DNA of 64,000 nt, taken from assembly GCA_021738065.1 (NCBI GenBank), contig JAIPCT010000004.1, positions 1-64,000 on the forward strand. The letters are read 5' to 3'. Shown piece by piece: positions 42,613-53,516 of the stretch. A program made the translations under genes and the position numbers. Each line of letters opens with the position of its first letter. Positions within the stretch are counted from its first letter, which is position 1. The stretch comes from Burkholderiaceae bacterium (GTDB taxonomy: Bacteria > Pseudomonadota > Gammaproteobacteria > Burkholderiales > Rhodocyclaceae). The notes below the pieces were generated by a model. The model was not told the DNA's origin. It saw nothing but the letters and a program-made list of their open reading frames with translations, and made no database searches.

Positions 42613-43809
42613 CTATCCCTTGACGCATACGAGTTGCTTCAAGGTATGAATCACTTCAACCAGATCGGTCTGGTTCGTCATCACAACGTCGATATCTTTA
42701 TAGGCTCCCGGAATTTCATCGATCACATTCTTGTCCTTGCGGCAAATTACACCTTCGGTCTGACGGATCAGGTCTTCTTTGGTGAATTGCTTCTCGGCGG
42801 CGGTGCGGCTCATGCGTCGGCCAGCGCCATGGGCGCAGGAATTGAAGCTCTCTGGATTGCCCTTGCCGCGCACGATATAGCTTCTTGCTCCCATACTGCC
42901 GGGAATGATTCCCATGTCGCCCTCGCGGGCACGAATAGCTCCCTTGCGGGTGACGAAAACGTCGGCGTCATAATGATGTTCCACGGTCACGTAGTTGTGG
43001 TGGCAGTTCACTACTTCCGAGGTCACCACGAAGGGTGGCAGGTGGCGCACCAGTGCCGCGAGTACGAGATCGATCATTGAGCGCCTGTTCTGCATGGCGT
43101 ATTCCTGTGCCCAGGTCACGGCCTCGACGTAGTCATTGAAATGCCTGCTGCCCTCCGGAAAATATGCAAGATCTTCGTCAGGCAGGTGGGCCATTTGGCG
43201 TTCCATGTCCTGCCGGGCCAGTTCGATAAAGTAGCTGGCTAAAGCGCTGCCAATGCCCCGGCTTCCTGAATGGAGCATTACCCAGACCTGATCGGCTTCG
43301 TCCAGGCAAACCTCGATGAAGTGGTTGCCGCTGCCGAGAGTGCCCATTTGGTTGATCCAGGTGGAGAACCGGCGAAACTTCTTGAGAAGCTGCGGATGTC
43401 TTTGCGTCATGGCCGTCAAGCGAGGCTCGAAGAGTTGAGCAGCGTCCACCAGCGCACGCGCACTTGAGTGTTCGGCACGACCGACCGGAACATCACGCGA
43501 AATTTGTCCGTAGACCTTTCTTAGCAATTTCTCATCCAGGTCGTTGGCCGTGAGCGAAAGTCGGCAGGCCACCATGCCACAGCCGATGTCGACGCCGACC
43601 GCTGCCGGGATGATGGCTTTGTGGGTGGCGATCACCGATCCGATGGTGGCACCTCTACCGACATGCACATCCGGCATGGCGGCCACGTGATGATGAATGA
43701 AGGGCAGGCTGGCGATGTTTGCGAGTTGCTGCTTTGAGCGCTCATCGACATCGTCCGTCCAGATCATTACCGGGACACGCGCTGATTGGATGACTTGTTT
43801 GATGGGCAT
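42613..43809 (-). CDS. rtcB: RNA-splicing ligase RtcB
   Basis: This 398-residue ligase joins RNA 3'-phosphate or 2',3'-cyclic phosphate ends to 5'-OH ends, using GTP and manganese. The GMP-accepting histidine is in NSCAHGAGRRMSR; metal-binding motifs include DIGCGM, MGTLGSGNHF and HSGSRGIG. ATG 43809 is preferred to an in-frame TTG four codons upstream. It repairs RNA cut by toxins or stress nucleases in other bacteria. No RtcR-type sigma-54 activator is nearby; instead a WYL regulator lies divergently upstream. Confidence 0.94.
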   Translation of the reverse strand: MPIKQVIQSARVPVMIWTDDVDERSKQQLANIASLPFIHHHVAAMPDVHVGRGATIGSVIATHKAIIPAAVGVDIGCGMVACRLSLTANDLDEKLLRKVYGQISRDVPVGRAEHSSARALVDAAQLFEPRLTAMTQRHPQLLKKFRRFSTWINQMGTLGSGNHFIEVCLDEADQVWVMLHSGSRGIGSALASYFIELARQDMERQMAHLPDEDLAYFPEGSRHFNDYVEAVTWAQEYAMQNRRSMIDLVLAALVRHLPPFVVTSEVVNCHHNYVTVEHHYDADVFVTRKGAIRAREGDMGIIPGSMGARSYIVRGKGNPESFNSCAHGAGRRMSRTAAEKQFTKEDLIRQTEGVICRKDKNVIDEIPGAYKDIDVVMTNQTDLVEVIHTLKQLVCVKG

Positions 43810-43884
43810 GTCACTTACCAAACCGACGAGATCAGGTCCGGCAGCACTTCCCCGGCCAGTTCGCTCAAGCTCAGGCTTACCCGA

Positions 43885-44584: not shown

Positions 44585-44603
44585 AGCGACAATCAATGTC
44601 GTA
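44585..44603. promoter_or_regulatory. Candidate WYL operator, copy 1
   Basis: AGCGACAATCAATGTCGTA is an imperfect inverted repeat (AGCGACA-N5-TGTCGTA). It has the same 19-base length and spacing as three other copies in this island. It ends 43 bases before the WYL regulator start and also faces the divergent rtcB side, so it suits autoregulation and control of both directions. Confidence 0.65.
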
Positions 44604-44646: not shown

Positions 44647-45675
44647 ATGCCACGCAAGTCGAAGAACAAAGCCAGCAGCACCCTGCAACGTCAGTGGACC
44701 ATGCTGCGGGCGATTCCAAGATTGCCGCGAGTTATCGGCACAAGCGAATTGATCGCTCGCCTGGACAGCGCTGGGTTCAACGTGGATTTGCGAACGATTC
44801 AGCGCGACCTCAACAGTCTCTCGGAAGTGCTGCCGCTGGCCTCGGATCAGCACAAGCCGCAGGGCTGGGGCTGGTTGCCGAACGCAGGTCAATTCGACAT
44901 ACCGGGGCTTGAGCCGCAGGCCGCGCTGGCTTTCCTCATGGCCGAAGCACACCTTCGTTCGGTGCTGCCGGCCAGCACCCTGGATTCCCTGCGTCCATGG
45001 TTCGATACCGCCCACGCCGTGCTCGACGAACACGGCAATGGGCTCGCCAAATGGCCCGGCAAAGTTCGCGTGCTGCCGCGCGGCTTGCCGCTGAAAGTGC
45101 CGGTCATCCGGCCCGAGGTACAGGCCGCCGTCTATCAGGCCGTGTTACAGGACTGCAAGTTGAGCATTAGCTACGGCACCAAGTCGGACACGGCCGATGG
45201 GGAGGAGCAACCCCACCGCGCCGTCTCGCCTCTGGCGCTGGTAGTACGCGACGGTGTCGTGTATCTCGTCTGCGTGTATGACGGCTACAGCGATCCCAGG
45301 CAGCTTGCGCTGCACCGCATGCGCGCGGCCGAACCGCTGGAAGACCCCGCGCAGCGACCGAAGGGCTTTTCCATCGACGGCTACATTGCCGAGGGGGAGT
45401 TCGGCATTCCGCTCAATCCCCGTCCCATCAAGCTGGAAGCCGAGTTCTATCGGCATGTCGCCATTCATCTGCGCGAATCGCCGATTTCGGAAGACCAGAC
45501 AATTCGTGACATCGACGAAGACAATATCCTGCTGCGCGCCACCGTGCCGGATACGCTGGAACTGCGCCTCTGGCTCAAGAGCTTTGGCGACGACGTGGCG
45601 GTACTCAAGCCAGTTGCCTTGCGCAGAGAGTTTCGGGAAATGGCCGAGAACCTCAAGGATTATTACGAAGATTGA
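44647..45675 (+). CDS. WYL-domain transcriptional regulator (YafY-type, HTH-WYL-WCX)
   Basis: This 342-residue regulator has an N-terminal winged helix (about 12-65, with VIGTSELIARLDSAGFNVDLRTIQRDL cut by a short wing), a WYL domain at about 160-235 (PLALVVRDGVVYLVCVYDGY; the name motif reads VYL) and a C-terminal WCX domain (about 255-335, with LRLWLKSFGDDVAVLKP). WYL domains bind nucleic acid or nucleotide ligands and control phage-defence and DNA-damage genes. A start near GGAGGGCGCCAA upstream of ATG 44647 is well placed. Its own promoter region and three others in the island carry the same inverted repeat. Confidence 0.9.
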   Translation: MPRKSKNKASSTLQRQWTMLRAIPRLPRVIGTSELIARLDSAGFNVDLRTIQRDLNSLSEVLPLASDQHKPQGWGWLPNAGQFDIPGLEPQAALAFLMAEAHLRSVLPASTLDSLRPWFDTAHAVLDEHGNGLAKWPGKVRVLPRGLPLKVPVIRPEVQAAVYQAVLQDCKLSISYGTKSDTADGEEQPHRAVSPLALVVRDGVVYLVCVYDGYSDPRQLALHRMRAAEPLEDPAQRPKGFSIDGYIAEGEFGIPLNPRPIKLEAEFYRHVAIHLRESPISEDQTIRDIDEDNILLRATVPDTLELRLWLKSFGDDVAVLKPVALRREFREMAENLKDYYED

Positions 45676-45730: not shown

Positions 45731-45749
45731 AGCGACGCTCCGTGTCGCT
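45731..45749. promoter_or_regulatory. Candidate WYL operator, copy 2
   Basis: AGCGACGCTCCGTGTCGCT has perfect AGCGAC / GTCGCT arms with the same spacing as the other copies. It lies 55 bases after the WYL stop and 22 bases before the next proposed start, and is followed by T(G/A)T as at copy 3. Confidence 0.65.
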
Positions 45750-45771: not shown

Positions 45772-46647
45772 ATGGATACCGGAACACGCCCCCACGACGA
45801 AATCGCGATCTGGCTTGCGGCGCAGAACCCCGTGATTCACCGACAACGCCACGCGCTTGCACGCGCCTATCCCGCGGTTGCTTTGACGCTGGCACGGCCG
45901 CACGAGAATCCGACCTTGCTTGCGATCAGCGCCGCAATCGACCGGGGCGAAGCGCTTGATGCCGCCGTCGCCGCCCTCGTCGGCGTGAGTCCGCCCGCTG
46001 TGGTCCGCCTGGAAAACATCAGCCCGGAGACTATCACCGACGAATGGATCAAGCATCCCATCGAACTGTTCTGGGCAATGGACGTGCTGCATCCCCTAAA
46101 CAGTCCGCAGACGCCGGAAGAATGGAATGTGCTGCGCAAACTCTGGATCAATACGGGGCTGGAATGGGATGAAGCCTACCGAAACGCTGTCGGGATTGGG
46201 CGCGAACGGCAGGTCGTGTTGGAATATCTGTTTCGCGGCCTGTGCGCGCAAGGCTATGGCGAGCCCGTCCGAACTCTCGCAGACCGCCTGGTTGCGCCGC
46301 TTCCCGGTATAGAAACCGATCCGGAATGCATCTGGCAATTCAACGGCTATGTCAGCTTCGTCGAGATGCTCATTGCTCCGACGATCTTGCTGAAGCGAAA
46401 AGAATCATGGAACGGCGCCGAGCGCCTACTTATGCGCTATCCGCCCGGCGAGTTGATCAGGCAGTGGGAATCCTGGCGTTGCATCATCGCTGCGCATGGC
46501 GATGCCGGGTTTGAAAACTGGAGCGAATGCGAAGACATGGCCAAGGCTCGATGGATAATGCGGCTTGTCGTACCGGACTTCGATGATGCCGTGCGATGGG
46601 TGGATTGCCATCCGAGGCAGTCTGCATCCTTGCCCACGGACTACTGA
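45772..46647 (+). CDS. Hypothetical protein of the WYL island
   Basis: This protein of 291 residues starts at ATG 45772 (a GTG at 45718 would place the operator inside the gene, so ATG is preferred). It is soluble and rich in Trp and Glu; blocks include HALARAYPAVALTLARPHEN and LDAAVAALVGVSPPAVVRLENI. The N-terminal layout reminds me of the region preceding PcfJ-like domains, but I would not assign it. It follows the WYL gene on the same strand and has a candidate WYL operator directly upstream. Confidence 0.7.
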   Translation: MDTGTRPHDEIAIWLAAQNPVIHRQRHALARAYPAVALTLARPHENPTLLAISAAIDRGEALDAAVAALVGVSPPAVVRLENISPETITDEWIKHPIELFWAMDVLHPLNSPQTPEEWNVLRKLWINTGLEWDEAYRNAVGIGRERQVVLEYLFRGLCAQGYGEPVRTLADRLVAPLPGIETDPECIWQFNGYVSFVEMLIAPTILLKRKESWNGAERLLMRYPPGELIRQWESWRCIIAAHGDAGFENWSECEDMAKARWIMRLVVPDFDDAVRWVDCHPRQSASLPTDY

Positions 46648-46991: not shown

Positions 46992-47657
46992 ATGAGTACT
47001 GGTGCGGATAGAGGCGCTGAAATTTTGGACTGCTTGATTCGTGGAGGCGAAAAGGCGGTCGCTGATTTTGCTGAAATAAGTGGTGGGGACTGGTTCGATG
47101 AGGCGCCAGAATATTTCCTTACGACCTATCTGGCGTCATCGGTGCGAAAGCTCGAAAAGACCTATGCGCTACTTGAGGTTAATGTAGACGAAACGAGGCA
47201 AGAAGCCGGAGCGCGCCGGCGAGGGCGCCCCGCGAAAAATGAACGTAGAAATGGGCGATTTGACTTCGTGATCTACGGAGCCAATGACAAGCCACGAGGA
47301 TCGATCGAAGTTAAGTCTCCGCTGTGGGTTGTTGATGAAAACAGACTGGGACCGGATTTCGAGCGTCTAGTAACAAGCATCTCAGCGAATCGCGATTCGT
47401 CGTTCCAATTTGGCGCATTTATCTATTATGCATCTGTATCCGATCCTAAGGCGAAGCACAATAACGCCACTGCGAAATTGAGAGAACTGGTTACTAAGAT
47501 CCATGATCGGGCCAAGGGTGCTGCCAAAGAACATGGGCTTGTTGCAACATCTTGTCCGGGATCGATCCACCGCGGCAACGAAGACGACGACGGCGCTTGG
47601 TGTGTGTCTGCAATTGTTTTTACACAAAAGGGCGGAGAGCGGTATTTTCGCAACTAG
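46992..47657 (+). CDS. Hypothetical protein with a PD-(D/E)XK-like core
   Basis: This 221-residue protein has D91 in RFDFVIYG and E106-V-K108 in GSIEVKSPLW, the spacing of a PD-(D/E)XK nuclease core. A basic stretch (GARRRGRPAKNERRNGR, about 73-88) precedes it. The gene is visibly more AT-rich than its neighbours (for example the stretch around 47000-47500), a sign of separate origin. ATG 46992 follows GGGAGTG. It may be a nuclease effector of the island, which is inference. Confidence 0.6.
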   Translation: MSTGADRGAEILDCLIRGGEKAVADFAEISGGDWFDEAPEYFLTTYLASSVRKLEKTYALLEVNVDETRQEAGARRRGRPAKNERRNGRFDFVIYGANDKPRGSIEVKSPLWVVDENRLGPDFERLVTSISANRDSSFQFGAFIYYASVSDPKAKHNNATAKLRELVTKIHDRAKGAAKEHGLVATSCPGSIHRGNEDDDGAWCVSAIVFTQKGGERYFRN

Positions 47658-47786: not shown

Positions 47787-47805
47787 AACGACAGTAATCG
47801 TCGCA
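47787..47805. promoter_or_regulatory. Candidate WYL operator, copy 4 (weaker)
   Basis: AACGACAGTAATCGTCGCA fits the AGCGACA-N5-TGTCGCT pattern with three mismatches and the same length and spacing. It lies 63 bases before the start of the DUF4352-type membrane protein, in a 211-base gap with no other recognisable feature. Confidence 0.45.
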
Positions 47806-47868: not shown

Positions 47869-49137
47869 ATGATCAAGGCGGGCGGAATTCTTGCCATCAT
47901 TGCCGGACTGCTGGGCTTGCTGGCAGGCGTGGTGACGTTGTTTATGGGCGGGCTGGGAGCGGCATTCTCCGCTGACGGTGCCGGCATGATAGTCGGCATG
48001 GGCTGGGGCGGCATCCTGTTTTCGCTGCTGGTCGTGGTGTATGGCGCGACGGCGTTTGCCGCGCCGCGCGCGGGTGCGACGGGGCTTGCTCTTTCGGCCA
48101 TCGCCGGCATGGCCTTGGGCGGCATGCTGGTGGCGATCCTGATGGTTCCGGCGCTGATCGCCGCCGTGATGGTGTGGTTTGGGAAAGCGAAATTGGAAGC
48201 TGGTCAGCAGCCTGTTGCCTCCGGCCACTGGAAAGGCATGGCCGCAGCGGCGGTTGCACCGATTCTAGCCGCCGTGCTGATTGGCGGTCAGGTAGTCGGC
48301 TCGAAGGAGAGCGCATCGGCATCCACTACGACAGGCGGTGACGCGCAGATCGCACGGATTGGACAGACCGTTCATTCAGCCCGGTTCGATGTCACGGTAC
48401 GCGGAATGCGGCTTGCCGACGTGCTTGGAGGTGACTTCGGCGCGGAGAAAGCGACACCGGGAACAGTCTTCGCGGTGCTCGACGTCGTGGTGCGTTGCGT
48501 GGATAAGGAGAGCCGGTTCTATACCGTTGGCGACTTGCTGGTCGAACTGGACGGCAAGACACTCAAGTTTGACCGAAGCGAGACGGTGCTGGGACTGAGC
48601 TCGCCTGTCGGCAGCATCAATCCGATGATGGAGAAATCGGGCTATGTGGTGTACAAAATCCCGACGGCCGCCGCAAACGCGCCGATGTACTGGACGCCGG
48701 GGCGAGGCTTCGACAAGGTGCGCTTTTCACTCAACGCGCCCGTGGCGCCAATGGCCGCACAGAGCGCCGTATCGCCAGCGCCGACTTTACCCGCCGCATC
48801 TGCGCCGATGCCGAACGAGGGGAATGCCAGCGGCGATCAGGCGGGTCTCGCGGGCGACTATGCCGATCCGCACAACAGCTTGCTGAAAATCCGACGCCAG
48901 GCAACCGGGCTGTTCAAGTTCTCGCTGGAAGCCGTCAGCCCGAACGGGAACACGGGCTCGGCGGAGGGCGATCTGACCGCGGCGGGCAGTGCTTACACCT
49001 GGCGCGATGCCGAGTTCGATTGCCTGCTCACCTTTCATCCTTCCGGCAACAGCATTTCGGTTGCCCAGAAAGGAAGCTGCGGCTTCGGCATGGGTGTCGG
49101 GGCGGAGGGAACCTACCGCAGGCGGACGGGACCGTAA
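47869..49137 (+). CDS. Membrane protein with DUF4352-like extracellular domain
   Basis: This 422-residue protein has three or four N-terminal membrane helices (about 5-145) and an external domain at about 160-290 with the DUF4352 pattern (IGQTVHSARFDVTVRGMRL, then TPGTVFAVLDVVVRCVDKE). A second beta-rich region follows after a Pro/Ala linker. Residues of about 299-307 (AVSPAPTLP) are encoded by an inserted family 2 repeat. ATG 47869 follows AAGGGAG. It may be the membrane part of the island's system. Function unknown. Confidence 0.72.
   Translation: MIKAGGILAIIAGLLGLLAGVVTLFMGGLGAAFSADGAGMIVGMGWGGILFSLLVVVYGATAFAAPRAGATGLALSAIAGMALGGMLVAILMVPALIAAVMVWFGKAKLEAGQQPVASGHWKGMAAAAVAPILAAVLIGGQVVGSKESASASTTTGGDAQIARIGQTVHSARFDVTVRGMRLADVLGGDFGAEKATPGTVFAVLDVVVRCVDKESRFYTVGDLLVELDGKTLKFDRSETVLGLSSPVGSINPMMEKSGYVVYKIPTAAANAPMYWTPGRGFDKVRFSLNAPVAPMAAQSAVSPAPTLPAASAPMPNEGNASGDQAGLAGDYADPHNSLLKIRRQATGLFKFSLEAVSPNGNTGSAEGDLTAAGSAYTWRDAEFDCLLTFHPSGNSISVAQKGSCGFGMGVGAEGTYRRRTGP
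48764..48788 (+). repeat. Family 2 short repeat inside a coding sequence
   Basis: The unit CGCCGTATCGCC-AGCGCCGACTTT lies in the linker of the DUF4352-type gene and is read on the plus strand as AVSPAPT, in a different frame from the copies in the transporter genes. It keeps the frame of the protein open. Confidence 0.8.
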
Positions 49138-49179: not shown

Positions 49180-49704
49180 ATGACGATCACCGCACAATTG
49201 ACGCTCGGCGACGGCGAGCGAAGCATGACTCTATCGCTGTGCTCAGTTGCCCTGGCCAAACTTGCCGAGACACTGATTGACCACGAGGACACGGCCGAAG
49301 CGCTCGACTGGCTTTCGCGCCACGCCGATTCCGCAGTGCGCAAGGCGATTGCCCGCAAGAAATGTCTGCCCGCAACGGCGGTCAGGCGCCTGGTCGCCGA
49401 TCCCGCCGTGGAGGTGACGCTGGAACTGTTGCGATCGATCCGGGCGCGCAGGGCATTGACTGGCGGCGAGGTGATTTCGTTATGCCTGCGCGATCCGGCT
49501 GTGGCCGAGTCAATTGCCTGTCGATACGACAATTTTGAATTGGACGGCGATGCCGTTGCCAATTTTCTGGAACGTCATGCCGACTCGCGGGTGCGCATCG
49601 CCTTGGCTGGAAACGCGTTTGTGCCGAAGCCGATATTGCGGCGCCTCGCGCAAAGCGATCCGGATGCCGGCGTGCGAAACGATGCGCGGCAAATGCTTGA
49701 GTGA
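49180..49704 (+). CDS. HEAT/LRV-like repeat protein
   Basis: This 174-residue soluble protein is built of short helical repeats of about 22-24 residues, each with a pattern such as SRHADSAVRKAIARKK or ERHADSRVRIALAGN followed by a LPxxxLRRLA-like helix. This resembles leucine-rich-repeat-variant or HEAT-like proteins, which bind protein partners. It lies 42 bases after the membrane protein gene on the same strand. Confidence 0.68.
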   Translation: MTITAQLTLGDGERSMTLSLCSVALAKLAETLIDHEDTAEALDWLSRHADSAVRKAIARKKCLPATAVRRLVADPAVEVTLELLRSIRARRALTGGEVISLCLRDPAVAESIACRYDNFELDGDAVANFLERHADSRVRIALAGNAFVPKPILRRLAQSDPDAGVRNDARQMLE

Positions 49705-49757: not shown

Positions 49758-51251
49758 CTAAAGCTTTCCTGAAAGCATTCGCCACAGCCTGACCATTGCC
49801 AGTGTGTCCAGCTTGCAATACTCGCGAAGTTGCCGGTCGATTTCGGCCTTGTCGCGGGAGGGCAATTCGCCGGGGAACACGGCTTCCATCCAAGCGGTCA
49901 TCGCCATTCCGCCATCCTGAATCCCGTCGAGTGTCTCGTAGCCGAGGTCCGCCGCAATGGTTGGCAGCACTCGCTTCAGGCTCCAACTGCCTTCCTGGTC
50001 GGGATGGTAGTAGTGCTCGCGGGCAATGGGATGCAGATCGACGATGCGATCATCGATTGCCAGCAAATCACGCCGCATGCGCGGGAACCGCTCGGCGAGT
50101 TCCCTGATACGGGCTTTTTCGAAGGAGGCGCTATAGACGAAGACCGGCCCGCGCTTGCCGCATGCGCCGATCAGCGCGACTGCCAGTGGCTTTGACGGAT
50201 CGTTGCCGGACAGATCAAGAAACGCCTCATGTTCGAGCTTGCCGGTACGGGACAGGCGATGCAGGCTGAACTGAAAACAAATGTTCTGATAGGGCCGCGT
50301 ACCGGCCCAGATCGGTACGGGCAGGCTGATCGACTCGAAATCGAGAAACCAGGCCGGCGATCCGTGAGGTGCGAGCGTCTTGGCTGCGCCCTTGCGGTCG
50401 AACCACGGTTTTCCGGAAAGAGATTGTGTCTTGACGCGAAGCTGTAGCGCGTTCAGCAAGGTATCCGGCACCTGGCGCAGATCGGCGATCTCCGGTCGTG
50501 CAAGATGTTCCTTGAGTTGCTTGCGCCTCACGTCGGGCAGCCAGGCCACCGGGTGATCGGCCTGGGTTTCCGTACTGGCGCAGTAGTCCACAAAGCCGCA
50601 GGCATAGGGCTTTCGGCATTGCTCGCCGGTGCAGATGTCGGATGCCTTGCGTCGGCCGGCAATTTTTCGTGCATCGGCAATCCATTGCTCGACCTCGCAC
50701 TCGCGGTCGAAGGCTTCATCGGTGAGATCGTTTTCCACCAGCAGGCCGTTGTAGTCGCCGTCGCCTGCGTAGGTCCATTGGCTGTCGATATGAGCCAGGG
50801 CAATCGCGGCGAGCGGCACTCCGGCCCGGCGGGCAATAAAGGACTGAATGGCGGCATCGTCGCGGTGGTAGTCGTGCACCGAGGTCGAGGATTTGACTTC
50901 CACCATGCGCCACATTCGTCGGCCGCCGCGTTTGATCGGCAGCATCACGTCGGCGTAAGCCAACGCGCCTTTTGCGGAGAATCCCGCCTCAAAAATCGGA
51001 TTCCGACCGGCGAGCAGCGTCATGCTCTGCGCAAGAACATCGGCGTGCCGTTGGGTGCCGGGATCGAACACGACCCCTTTACCCTTCGGATCATAAAGTC
51101 GTCGCGCTACCTCGCCGACAGCGTGGCCAGCGCCAAAACTGGCCAGCGTGGCCGGAGAATCCTCGCGAAGATCAGGCCGATGGATTTCCAGCCATAGGCG
51201 CCGGGGACATTGCCGAAACGCCAGCAGCTTGGACTTGGAAAGATTTTTCAT
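49758..51251 (-). CDS. DUF2779-family nuclease: Cas4/RecB-like PD-(D/E)XK domain plus DEDD-type exonuclease domain
   Basis: This 497-residue protein has a PD-(D/E)XK site (D101; E118-V-K120 in RMVEVKSSTS) and Cys at 15, 207, 212, 218 and 224, arranged as in the Fe-S nucleases Cas4 and AddB. A second domain from about 300 has WFLDFES (D304, E306) and ends with EYCKLDTLAM, as in RNase-T-like exonucleases. This architecture is that of DUF2779. ATG 51251 is followed by KSKLLAFRQCPRRLW. It lies 106 bases downstream of the AAA+ gene on the same strand, so they probably form one operon. Confidence 0.85.
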   Translation of the reverse strand: MKNLSKSKLLAFRQCPRRLWLEIHRPDLREDSPATLASFGAGHAVGEVARRLYDPKGKGVVFDPGTQRHADVLAQSMTLLAGRNPIFEAGFSAKGALAYADVMLPIKRGGRRMWRMVEVKSSTSVHDYHRDDAAIQSFIARRAGVPLAAIALAHIDSQWTYAGDGDYNGLLVENDLTDEAFDRECEVEQWIADARKIAGRRKASDICTGEQCRKPYACGFVDYCASTETQADHPVAWLPDVRRKQLKEHLARPEIADLRQVPDTLLNALQLRVKTQSLSGKPWFDRKGAAKTLAPHGSPAWFLDFESISLPVPIWAGTRPYQNICFQFSLHRLSRTGKLEHEAFLDLSGNDPSKPLAVALIGACGKRGPVFVYSASFEKARIRELAERFPRMRRDLLAIDDRIVDLHPIAREHYYHPDQEGSWSLKRVLPTIAADLGYETLDGIQDGGMAMTAWMEAVFPGELPSRDKAEIDRQLREYCKLDTLAMVRLWRMLSGKL

Positions 51252-51357
51252 CGCGGCGAATCCTTTTGCATAACGGGTCGATATGCGCGGCGAACAGTTC
51301 CACCGCCACGTTCAGCCGATGGCGTCGCGCTGCTTTCTGCTGCGAGGATAGCGCGCA

Positions 51358-53448
51358 TTACACAAACCCGATGGACTTGCTCGAAGATCCTTTCACGCGA
51401 CATTCTTCGGCCAATGCTTCGATGATCTCGGCAGCTTCCGGTTCCATACCCGTCAGCGCCCACTGGCGCACGACGACGGCGAAATCGCCGGGTGTGAGCT
51501 GGTCCAGCGCCGTGAGTTGGCGGCGAGCCTGATCTGTCAAGGGTGAGGGCAGCGCTGGCCAACTGGCGTGCAGCAGGGAAAGGCACTGTTCCGGACGAAG
51601 ATAGTCAAAACGAACCTTGAAATCGAAGCGACGCAGCGATGCGGCATCCAGCCGATCCAGCAGATTGGTCGTGCAAACGAAAACCCCTTGAAAGGATTCC
51701 ATTTGGCTGAGCATTTCGTTCACCTGGGTAACTTCCCACGAGTGAGTGGCGTCACGCCGGTCGGCGAGCATGCTGTCGGCCTCATCAAGGATCAGAACCG
51801 CATTCTCGGCCTCGGCTGCGCGAAACATGGCGGCGATATTCTGCTCGCTGTCGCCGACCCACTTGCTGAGGAGGTCGGATGCGCGCTTGATCATCACTGG
51901 CTTGCCTATCGCTCCAGCAATGTGGCTTGCCAGTGCGCTCTTGCCGGTGCCCGGCGGGCCATAGAAGCAAAAGCTGCCGCGTCCGACATTGCACAGACCG
52001 GTAATGATCTGCTCAGGTGATCGGCTGGTATTGACGAAATTCAGGCTGTAGGCGGCCTGACCCTTGCGGGTCGGCAAAGGGGATTGCCCGAGCACCTGGG
52101 CGCTCGCGCGCAGGACGCGCTCGGCAATCTGCTCGATGTCGCCACCGGCTGCCGGGCTGACCATGCTTGCGACCCGTGCCGCTTTTTCCATTTGAGCGGG
52201 AGTGACTTCGTCCCACTTTGCGAGCCGTGCGATCCAGTCGCCGCTCGCGTGTGTATTGCCAAAATACTTTTTTGCAATGCTGTGTCTCGCCGCTTCCGGC
52301 GGCGTAGGAATCTCCAGGATGAAATCAAAGCGTCGCAGATAAGCGGGATCGATCTGCTCTATGGAGTTGCTGATCCAAATGGCCGGTACCGGATTGGTTT
52401 CCAGAATGCGATTGATCCATGCTTTGCCGTTTCCGACGGAGCGTGTGTTCTGACCAAATAGAGCCATGAGCCCGCCCATATCGCTTGGGAACACATCCTC
52501 TATCTCATCGAACAGCACCAAACAATCGCCTACCGGACCGAGAAGGCGCTGACACAACAGGTAGGACGCAAGTCGTGCTTCCCCCTTCTGTGCATCGCCG
52601 TCTTCATCGGCACAACTGACTTCGTGCAAGACTGCGCCAACCGATGCTGCCAACAGCCGTGCGAACTCGGATTTGCCTGTGCCGGGTTTGCCGTGGATCA
52701 AGATGTTGACGCCTACCTCACTCATCACCAGGGCTTGGGTAAGGTACTTGTGCAGAAGCCGATAGTCAGCTTCGAGATGCACAAAGTCCTCTTCCTTAAG
52801 TTTTCCCGACGAGGCCGGACGGAAAAAGTGAGTCAGCAGCTGATCAGGGGGTTCCTGACGGGTGAGGAGAATGTTCGGCATGTTGTCGGCGACTCTGAAC
52901 TTTCTCTCAAAATCATTTATATCATGCTCGAAGCGAACCAGCCCGCTCTGAGGCAGCGCACCCGCACGGGACAAGGTTCGACTGATCGCGACAAGTTCGT
53001 GCCCGGTCATGTTGGACAGAATCTGAGCGGCGCGCATGTCTGTGCAACTGATATTTAGCCGAGACATCGAATTCTGAAACGAGCCGTTAGCTTGAAGCAG
53101 CATGATCACTGCACAAATGTCGCGGGCCACTTGATCGAAGCCCAGGCGCTCGCCCAACCAGGCGATGTTTTCCACCAGAGGGGTTCCGGCGAGGGTGGGC
53201 TTGCGACGCTCAATTGCTTTGCGCCATGCAATGAAGTGCTTCTTGATTTCAACTGTTGTCAGCTCGGCTTCCGTATCGTCGTTCCATACATCGATGGTAT
53301 TGGCGATGTAGTCGTCCCAGAAGCTTCTCAGTCGGTCGGGAGTGCACTGGGACTTGGCGACAAGCCGCCCCAGCCATAAAGAACAGACCTGATCGTATTG
53401 TCGGGTGAGCTTGTCGTTGATGGTGGGTGCGAATCGGCGGCGTGCCAT
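51358..53448 (-). CDS. AAA+ ATPase with two ATPase domains
   Basis: This 696-residue protein has a helical N-terminal region (about 1-230) and two AAA+ domains. The first has Walker A GKPGTGKS (253-260) and Walker B LFDEIED (312-318). The second has GPPGTGKS (497-504) and LILDEAD (552-558), with arginine-rich ends such as YLRRFDF and ASLRRFDF that hold the arginine fingers. ATG 53448 follows GAGGTAG; the longer upstream frame would run through the operator region. Double-ring ATPases of this type remodel proteins or complexes; the substrate is unknown. It shares an operon with the DUF2779 nuclease. Confidence 0.88.
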   Translation of the reverse strand: MARRRFAPTINDKLTRQYDQVCSLWLGRLVAKSQCTPDRLRSFWDDYIANTIDVWNDDTEAELTTVEIKKHFIAWRKAIERRKPTLAGTPLVENIAWLGERLGFDQVARDICAVIMLLQANGSFQNSMSRLNISCTDMRAAQILSNMTGHELVAISRTLSRAGALPQSGLVRFEHDINDFERKFRVADNMPNILLTRQEPPDQLLTHFFRPASSGKLKEEDFVHLEADYRLLHKYLTQALVMSEVGVNILIHGKPGTGKSEFARLLAASVGAVLHEVSCADEDGDAQKGEARLASYLLCQRLLGPVGDCLVLFDEIEDVFPSDMGGLMALFGQNTRSVGNGKAWINRILETNPVPAIWISNSIEQIDPAYLRRFDFILEIPTPPEAARHSIAKKYFGNTHASGDWIARLAKWDEVTPAQMEKAARVASMVSPAAGGDIEQIAERVLRASAQVLGQSPLPTRKGQAAYSLNFVNTSRSPEQIITGLCNVGRGSFCFYGPPGTGKSALASHIAGAIGKPVMIKRASDLLSKWVGDSEQNIAAMFRAAEAENAVLILDEADSMLADRRDATHSWEVTQVNEMLSQMESFQGVFVCTTNLLDRLDAASLRRFDFKVRFDYLRPEQCLSLLHASWPALPSPLTDQARRQLTALDQLTPGDFAVVVRQWALTGMEPEAAEIIEALAEECRVKGSSSKSIGFV

Positions 53449-53452
53449 GGAA

Positions 53453-53487
53453 ACTACCTCGGTAAATGTAATGCATACCGAGATAGT
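53453..53487. promoter_or_regulatory. 12-bp inverted repeat overlapping the AAA+ ribosome binding site
   Basis: The arms ACTACCTCGGTA (53453-53464) and TACCGAGATAGT (53476-53487) match at 11 of 12 positions, with an 11-base spacer. The right end overlaps the ribosome binding site on the minus strand, four bases before ATG. It could be a repressor site or an RNA hairpin that hides the ribosome binding site. It is different from the WYL-type repeat beside it. Confidence 0.6.
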
Positions 53488-53497
53488 AGATGGACGT

Positions 53498-53516
53498 AGC
53501 GACATTATGTGTCGCT
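53498..53516. promoter_or_regulatory. Candidate WYL operator, copy 3
   Basis: AGCGACATTATGTGTCGCT has perfect seven-base arms (AGCGACA / TGTCGCT) with a five-base spacer. It ends 49 bases upstream of the AAA+ start. A further half-site GTCGCTTAT occurs at 53623-53631 inside CGACCG-N8-CGGTCG. The gap 53517-53885 otherwise contains only one family 2 repeat and no gene I can support. Confidence 0.68.

Follow-up and report, generated by a model that had tools for sequence, protein, structure and literature searches.

A conserved putative operator links a CDC48-like ATPase gene, a DUF2779 nuclease gene and a candidate DriD-like WYL regulator gene in a bacterial gene island

Among transcription factors with a WYL domain, DriD of Caulobacter is activated by single-stranded DNA (ssDNA), and both DriD and PafBC control DNA-damage genes. 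The DriD consensus is ATACGAC(N7)GTCGTAT, its sites overlap the -35 element, and the structures 9PFQ and 7TZV are of DriD, as given in PMC12340889. The WYL repressors BrxR and CapW stand beside defence-type genes, and the half-sites of BrxR lie 5 nucleotides apart (PMC9122601 and PMC9122589). Here we describe a gene island in a 64,000-nucleotide stretch from a Burkholderiaceae bacterium (assembly GCA_021738065.1, contig JAIPCT010000004.1, positions 1 to 64,000; hereafter the window), in which a conserved putative operator, GCGACA-N5-TGTCGC, precedes the gene for a twin-AAA ATPase, a WYL gene and two other island genes. The ATPase gene and a downstream gene for a DUF2779 nuclease probably form a single transcription unit within a mobile regulon under WYL control. 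No description of this operator or regulon was found in the literature searched, the scope of which excluded supplements and most subscription papers. The sites and genes in question are as follows.

51358-53448, minus strand: twin-AAA ATPase gene, 696 amino acids from the ATG at 53448
49758-51251, minus strand: DUF2779 double-nuclease gene, 497 amino acids, Pfam PF11074 at E = 7.7e-41
44647-45675, plus strand: WYL-WCX transcription factor gene, candidate DriD-like regulator, with Pfam WYL and WCX matches and a clade profile (A7) that matches DriD-type entries and PafBC
53498-53516, no strand assigned: operator 1, AGCGACA-N5-TGTCGCT, no mismatches, 49 base pairs (bp) upstream of the ATPase ATG
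44585-44603, no strand assigned: operator 2, 2 mismatches of 14, 43 bp upstream of the WYL start
45731-45749, no strand assigned: operator 3, 1 mismatch, 22 bp upstream of the ATG at 45772
47787-47805, no strand assigned: operator 4, 3 mismatches (the weakest), 63 bp upstream of the ATG at 47869

The first-pass annotation, made from the sequence alone, had placed the two genes on one strand, 106 bases apart, behind a shared operator region. The gap between the ATPase gene and the DUF2779 gene downstream of it is indeed 106 bp, both genes being on the minus strand, and the shared region contains the perfect palindrome of operator 1. The full open reading frame (ORF) of the ATPase spans 51358-53505 on the minus strand with in-frame ATGs at 53505 and 53448, of which the second is the likelier start because ATG 53505 sits within the palindrome. 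Four matches within the 700 upstream bases of seven island genes correspond to a Poisson probability of about 3e-6, or 1.3e-4 for three matches when the site that gave the pattern is excluded. The remaining six matches in the window at three mismatches are all outside the island, and copies with no or one mismatch occur in the genome of this bacterium only at the island. Scans for sigma-70 promoters and terminators between 53400 and 53900 found nothing. An origin of the palindrome from LexA was considered and dropped because LexA boxes differ.

We also surveyed the operator in 157 loci (2,400,692 bases), which had been fetched for other reasons and include some duplicate stretches (e.g. L019/L215). 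The exact GCGACA-N5-TGTCGC motif was present in 38 copies, compared with 0, 1, 0, 0, 3 and 0 copies for six control patterns, and 124 copies were found with up to one mismatch, compared with 6, 12, 17, 5, 43 and 5 for the controls. The 124 copies were those with a spacer of 5 nucleotides, whereas other spacers yielded 4 to 15. They were assigned to ATPase genes (50 copies in 43 loci), WYL genes (9), DUF2779 genes (6), other genes (43) or no gene (16), and the 50 copies at ATPase genes were located 45-65 bp before the called ORF start in 22 cases and 0-110 bp before it in 42 cases. For counts per gene, we removed duplicates and accepted as many as 2 mismatches in the 12 bases, within a 400-base segment around each start. 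By this measure, the operator was associated with 63 of 117 distinct ATPase genes (1.55 in shuffled sequences), 18 of 62 WYL genes (1.05), 12 of 54 DUF2779 genes (0.7) and 86 of 1289 other genes. Sites at ATPase, WYL and DUF2779 genes were also seen in other Pseudomonadota and in records from Geobacter, Desulfobacteraceae and Myxococcales.

The regulator was the next element of the first-pass annotation, which had put the pair under WYL control. The part of this claim that concerns the operator stood up: the WYL gene has its own copy of the palindrome, and a WYL gene was present in 24 of the 29 loci with an operator at the ATPase gene as against 15 of the 41 without (p=0.0002, with no change on removal of duplicates). 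Five ORFs separate the WYL gene from the pair, however, so that it is not adjacent. A conserved RTIQRDL stretch points to an N-terminal helix-turn-helix in the WYL protein. A profile of its clade (A7, 19 sequences) matched 7u02, 7tzv, 9cu3, 9pfq and 8tp8 best among PDB entries (E 7.5e-18 to 3.7e-17), followed by PafBC (8.2e-15) and, at 0.0056, CapW, while BrxR was not among the 10 PDB matches at E 0.01. Near-equal scores and, for 8tp8, a near-identical alignment suggest that 7u02, 9cu3 and 8tp8 are also DriD. A wider WYL profile (A6) matched DriD (9pfq) at E 3e-44 and BrxR at E 4.3e-7; we preferred the narrower A7 because A6 contains divergent DriD-like rows. By profile similarity, the clade is closest, among solved structures, to DriD and PafBC, both of them DNA-damage regulators. 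The CGACA-N5-TGTCG core of the DriD consensus is also the core of the island operator, and the CGAC-N7-GTCG core that characterises DriD-type binding sites is present near the genes, which makes these candidate sites of that type. A DriD-type activator is our preferred reading because of the A7 matches and the shared site core. The window protein differs from DriD in belonging to another clade, with similarity at the profile level only, and in that the box stands at genes of a mobile island instead of at didA, bapE, recJ and dnaG. With BrxR and CapW it shares the position of a WYL regulator beside defence-type genes and, with BrxR, the 5-nucleotide distance between half-sites, but by the A7 profile it is distant from both in sequence.

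Several results weigh against a regulon of this kind. With two mismatches allowed, the excess in the surveyed loci is lost (286 copies versus 115-359 for the controls), and in the genome of this bacterium the motif at 2 of 14 mismatches is rarer than its reversed control (14 versus 26). There was no copy at 2 mismatches at 54 of the 117 ATPase genes, and the loci are kin by descent, which means that the operator sites are not independent. In the 24 genomes of the class with an ATPase gene, the exact motif occurred in 16 copies compared with 11 for the reversed control, and 16 of these genomes had no exact copy at all. Since the exact motif scarcely outnumbers the reversed control genome-wide, the weight lies on its local clustering: 12 of the 16 exact copies were within 25 kb of an ATPase gene. 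In 39 genomes that matched neither gene, there were six exact copies. As for the regulator, a phmmer search with the single window WYL sequence found no PDB relative at E 0.01, the WYL proteins beside DUF2779 genes in relatives are only about 35% identical to the one in the window, and the A7 match is confined to the WYL-WCX part, because of which the DriD-type reading is held with caution. With these points taken into account, we consider a regulon with a DriD-type operator likely.

To what extent the ATPase and the nuclease belong together was assessed from their recurrence. For this analysis, we searched 368 genomes of the class, leaving out the genome of the window and using a threshold of E 1e-40 for the ATPase. 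PF11074 was present in 23 genomes, the ATPase in 24 and both in 6, where 1.5 were expected (Fisher p=0.0019). Both genes were within 10 kb of each other in five of the six (G153, G299, G307, G334 and G388) and on different contigs in the sixth (G197). Among the 11 nearer DUF2779 loci, again without our own, the stretch retrieved contained an ATPase gene in 6 and a WYL gene in 9. Conversely, of 80 ATPase loci kept from 135 relatives, many of which end at contig ends, 15 contained a relative of DUF2779 and 30 a relative of the WYL protein (E 1e-5). The order ATPase-DUF2779-WYL is found on plasmids of Rhodoferax and Diaphorobacter. On the whole, the pairing is real but optional, since it recurs and yet each partner is more often found alone.

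This leaves room for a reading in which there is no physical partnership, the ATPase and the DUF2779 protein being independent members of one mobile regulon and neighbours only through their shared operator. It accounts for the 17 of 23 DUF2779 genomes without the ATPase and the 18 of 24 ATPase genomes without DUF2779, both of which count against a fixed pair, for the presence of the same operator at many other types of gene and for loci L015 and L090, where the two genes are divergent and not one operon. It sits less well with the recurrence of same-strand, near-contiguous pairs (L213, L217, L178, L074, L093 and L094) and with the short distance between the genes in nearly all co-occurring genomes. 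We regard this reading as a serious but doubtful one, and a direct partnership between ATPase and nuclease as a tentative proposal that falls somewhat short of an even chance.

The two domains of the DUF2779 protein are encoded as follows.

50562-51251, minus strand: Cas4-fold PD-(D/E)XK domain, residues 1-230, with cysteines 15, 212, 218 and 224, from fold match and conservation
49761-50363, minus strand: DEDDy 3'-5' exonuclease-like domain, residues 297-497, from a match to the exonuclease region of family-B DNA polymerases and a conserved motif

Residues 301-423 match the DUF2779 Pfam profile with 139.7 bits against a cut-off of 23.3, which makes the protein a member of PF11074. This family is placed, in PMC3985635, among presumed 3'-5' exonucleases as family F.17 of the RNase H-like superfamily, with DUF83 as a partner domain. 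The first-pass annotation had read a PD-(D/E)XK site, cysteines of iron-sulphur (Fe-S) type and a DEDD-like exonuclease domain into this protein and had called for structure prediction; its reading of the domains was supported. In an alignment of 35 sequences that includes the window protein, D101 is kept in 34 and both E118 and K120 in 33; C15 is kept in 33 and C212, C218 and C224 in all 35; E88 and Q136 are likewise kept, each in 33-35 rows; and the set D304, E306, D405, Y478 and D482 is kept in 33 to 35. An AlphaFold model built from 15 sequences had a predicted local distance difference test (pLDDT) score of 91.8. Foldseek listed three matches under E 0.001, all to Cas4 chains (1.6e-4 to 4.5e-4), and with a second aligner residues 1-230 were superposed on Cas4 7mi4_A (Z 14.0, root-mean-square deviation (rmsd) 3.2, 183 aligned) and on Cas4 SSO0001 4ic1_D (Z 13.3). 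The same aligner matched residues 297-497 to the 3'-5' exonuclease region in family-B polymerases, with about 170 residues aligned at a Z of about 13. A phmmer search with the protein found no solved relative at E 1. We conclude from conservation and modelling that the gene is predicted to encode a nuclease of Cas4 fold, which has four conserved cysteines (a putative Fe-S cluster) and is fused to a DEDDy exonuclease domain, the active-site motifs being complete in both.

The N-terminal part thus has the fold, the PD-(D/E)XK residues and the 1+3 cysteine arrangement of Cas4. It differs from Cas4 in being joined to a DEDDy exonuclease, in that no cas1 or cas2 is present among the ORFs scanned in part of the window (clustered regularly interspaced short palindromic repeat, or CRISPR, arrays were not searched for), and in that the Cas4 model of PADLOC, the only PADLOC model that the protein matched, gave E 0.019 (4.3e-6 for a relative). 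The C-terminal part resembles the proofreading domain of family-B DNA polymerases in its RNase H-like fold and DEDDy motif (D-x-E, D, Y-x3-D), but there is no polymerase domain and the partner is instead the Cas4-like nuclease. There is no support for carriage of the pair by phages, because no DUF2779 match at E 1e-5 was found in 50,697 phage records, no full ATPase relative was found in viral stretches around DUF2779 genes and no relative of the ATPase was found on viral contigs. The stretches came from 12 IMG/VR contigs that carry a DUF2779 gene (up to 8 kb on each side); none had an operator at one mismatch, one had a weak AAA match (E 4.4e-11) and two had WYL matches. In two IMG/VR loci (L230 and L232) the DUF2779 gene adjoins a weak WYL match (E 9e-12 and 1.3e-17), without an operator at one mismatch.

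The ATPase, which had been annotated as a twin-AAA+ protein, consists of a helical N-terminal region (residues 1-210) and two AAA modules at about 214-691, both recovered as stretches of the Pfam AAA family. Its AlphaFold model had a pLDDT of 88.0, with residues 1-210 almost all helical, and the best folds were p97, NVL, Rix7 and CDC48; residues 214-691 were superposed on 7lmz_A with Z 19.5, 437 aligned and rmsd 7.1. The Walker A, Walker B, sensor and arginine-finger residues of both modules do not vary across the 60 aligned sequences. Position 530 in the D2 pore is occupied by an aromatic residue (W, Y or F) in 59 of the 60, a feature expected in AAA enzymes that thread proteins. On this evidence from sequence and model, the protein is a predicted p97/CDC48-like ATPase with two intact AAA modules. 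It shares these modules and the aromatic D2 pore loop with the type II AAA proteins CDC48/p97, NVL and Rix7 and is unlike them in being bacterial and often located in mobile islands. The N-domain of p97 is beta-rich, whereas the region in its place here is almost all-helical, with no solved relative among the fold matches listed for the whole-protein model, and the NCBIfam CDC48 model scored 85 against a cut-off of 803. We also considered the IetAS defence system, of which the partner IetS is subtilisin-like. It was rejected: the NCBIfam IetA model gave 108.5 bits against a cut-off of 510, and there was no peptidase among ten proteins between 44.6 and 55.2 kb that were scanned against Pfam.

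Leftward of the pair are five further ORFs, then the WYL gene and then a gene for the RNA ligase RtcB, whereas those scanned on the right-hand side are ordinary genes (S4 domain, GTPase). The guanine-plus-cytosine content per 1-kb block is 0.52-0.64 from 41 to 54 kb and 0.63-0.69 in the flanks (36-41 and 54-58 kb). The following genes accompany those listed above.

49180-49704, plus strand: LRV/HEAT-like repeat protein gene, convergent with the DUF2779 gene, with sub-threshold LRV and HEAT_2 matches
47869-49137, plus strand: ORF behind operator 4, with a weak DUF4352 match (E=0.00026) under the curated cut-off
46992-47657, plus strand: ORF with no Pfam or NCBIfam match and a weak PADLOC 'Tin' match (E=0.0049)
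45772-46647, plus strand: ORF behind operator 3, for which Pfam, PADLOC and NCBIfam gave no match within the limits applied
42613-43821, minus strand: RtcB RNA ligase gene, adjoining the WYL gene

A 31% identical relative of the LRV/HEAT-like protein adjoins the ATPase gene in locus L084. There is no operator upstream of the window RtcB gene at 3 mismatches of 14. In relatives, the ATPase gene on a Methylomonas plasmid (L106) is followed by a gene for an RtcB of 75% identity, one of 57% identity has an operator 60 bp upstream (L088), and a fragment is present in L090.

We scanned 20 of the other operator-preceded genes against Pfam, of which 8 had no match at E 0.001. The remainder included genes for RtcB and a metallophosphoesterase (L088), an RNase T-type exonuclease (L029), a DnaB-type helicase (L027), a histone-deacetylase-like protein (L089), an ADP-ribosylglycohydrolase (L205), a PD-(D/E)XK protein (L208) and FtsZ-like proteins (L217, L219). 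An exact operator copy precedes a RecC gene (L206:15985-19530), which is followed by a RecB-like and then a RecD-sized gene and which also opens L272:3-9293. In G388, about 50 kb contain the RecC stretch together with a DUF2779 gene, two genes for the ATPase and five exact copies of the operator. The divergent FtsZ-like proteins (L217:4127-5323, L217:5397-6467 and L219:6405-7574) are encoded beside ATPase genes in G021, a member of the window's own genus; the operator is located at L217:4127 and L219:6405, and L217:4127 has a weak match to a twin-arginine translocation (TAT) signal. Two further gene clusters, of which one member each was scanned, contain a Sir2 protein (L090:13214-14038) or an ADP-ribosylglycohydrolase (L023:8683-9765) and are each found near the ATPase in 7 loci, hinting at nicotinamide adenine dinucleotide (NAD)/ADP-ribose chemistry in these islands.

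The presence of RecC, the helicase, the exonuclease and RtcB behind the operator, together with the control of DNA-damage genes by DriD and PafBC, would also fit a module of mobile elements that serves repair or replication restart and has no role in defence. Such a module does not explain why candidate defence genes are found in the same neighbourhoods, and we consider it unlikely as a full account. RecBCD and AddAB act in both repair and defence, which is why the two readings overlap.

The defence context was quantified with PADLOC. The sample comprised 148 of 399 neighbour genes (the three nearest per locus, with three over 900 amino acids dropped) and 148 of 191 control genes from regions hand-picked in the same genomes. 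Families matched numbered 153 near the loci and 33 in the controls, which is indicative only because families and not proteins were counted, only the first 25 families were listed and the controls had matches too, mainly to methyltransferase models but also to mad2, mad3, DrmC and WYL. DpdF, ZacA/B, AbiE and PDC families were among the matches listed near the loci. On a Rhodoferax plasmid, the PADLOC candidate system PDC-M27A/B/C lies directly downstream of ATPase-DUF2779-WYL (L093:11500-17478), and BREX-2 genes stand beside WYL-ATPase on a Sphaerotilus plasmid. A three-gene block (c72-c73-c74) follows ATPase-DUF2779 in both L074 and L070, with similar sizes in the two. The first-pass annotation had named as grounds for its refutation that the two families never co-occur elsewhere and show no defence-island enrichment; they do co-occur, and the indicative enrichment also speaks against such a refutation.

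Its further claim, that an ATPase and a nuclease under a WYL regulator follow the usual plan of phage defence, was not supported as worded: the pairing is facultative, the regulator clade is nearest, among solved structures, to activators of DNA-damage genes and the operator precedes repair-type genes. A dedicated two-gene anti-phage system, in which the ATPase would sense or remodel a phage structure and license the nuclease to destroy DNA under a BrxR/CapW-type repressor, could draw on the neighbouring defence families and the BrxR half-site distance, but it is quite unlikely given the facultative pair, the closer profile match to DriD and PafBC, the absence of the strings GACA and TGTC from the searched main texts of three BrxR and CapW papers (figures lay outside the search), the lack of any PADLOC match for DUF2779 other than Cas4 at E 0.019 and the matches of the ATPase to models such as IetA mainly via its AAA part. 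For anti-phage activity as such, in whatever arrangement, we put the chance just under even.

The explanation that we favour is a mobile, DriD-type-regulated DNA-processing regulon that is possibly defensive, and taken as a whole it stands about evenly between right and wrong. The WYL protein would act as a DriD-type sensor, bind the operator and turn the unit on as ssDNA builds up through DNA damage or invading phage or plasmid DNA; whether it senses ssDNA as DriD does could go either way. The DUF2779 protein may trim or degrade DNA ends, its Cas4-like and DEDDy sites acting on either polarity. The CDC48-like ATPase would thread and unfold protein through its aromatic D2 pore loop, and most simply this may serve to clear proteins off DNA, or to free or load the nuclease. 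The result would be DNA processing during genome conflict, be it repair, defence or both.

What is new here is a shared and widely conserved operator, through which an odd gene pair would become part of a mobile regulon under a DriD-like regulator. More broadly, though as a reading somewhat less likely than not, we propose a mobile, SOS-independent DNA-conflict regulon in which a DriD-like ssDNA-sensing WYL protein and one operator box cross classes and phyla with interchangeable effectors, the CDC48-like ATPase being the most frequent member, and the fusion of Cas4 with a family-B polymerase-type exonuclease, RecBCD copies, the RtcB RNA ligase, FtsZ-like proteins and exonucleases being variable ones. 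If this is true, one short DNA box would suffice to identify, by sequence alone, the genes that make up a widespread and uncharacterised set, a bacterial CDC48-like unfoldase would be tied to DNA conflict, and DUF2779, a Pfam domain of unknown function, would gain a regulatory context and two predicted activities. Binding of the WYL protein to the box and its response to ssDNA would show whether DNA-damage sensing and phage defence share one portable switch, and the operator that the set shares with a regulator resembling DNA-damage sensors suggests genes that may be switched on by damaged or foreign DNA.

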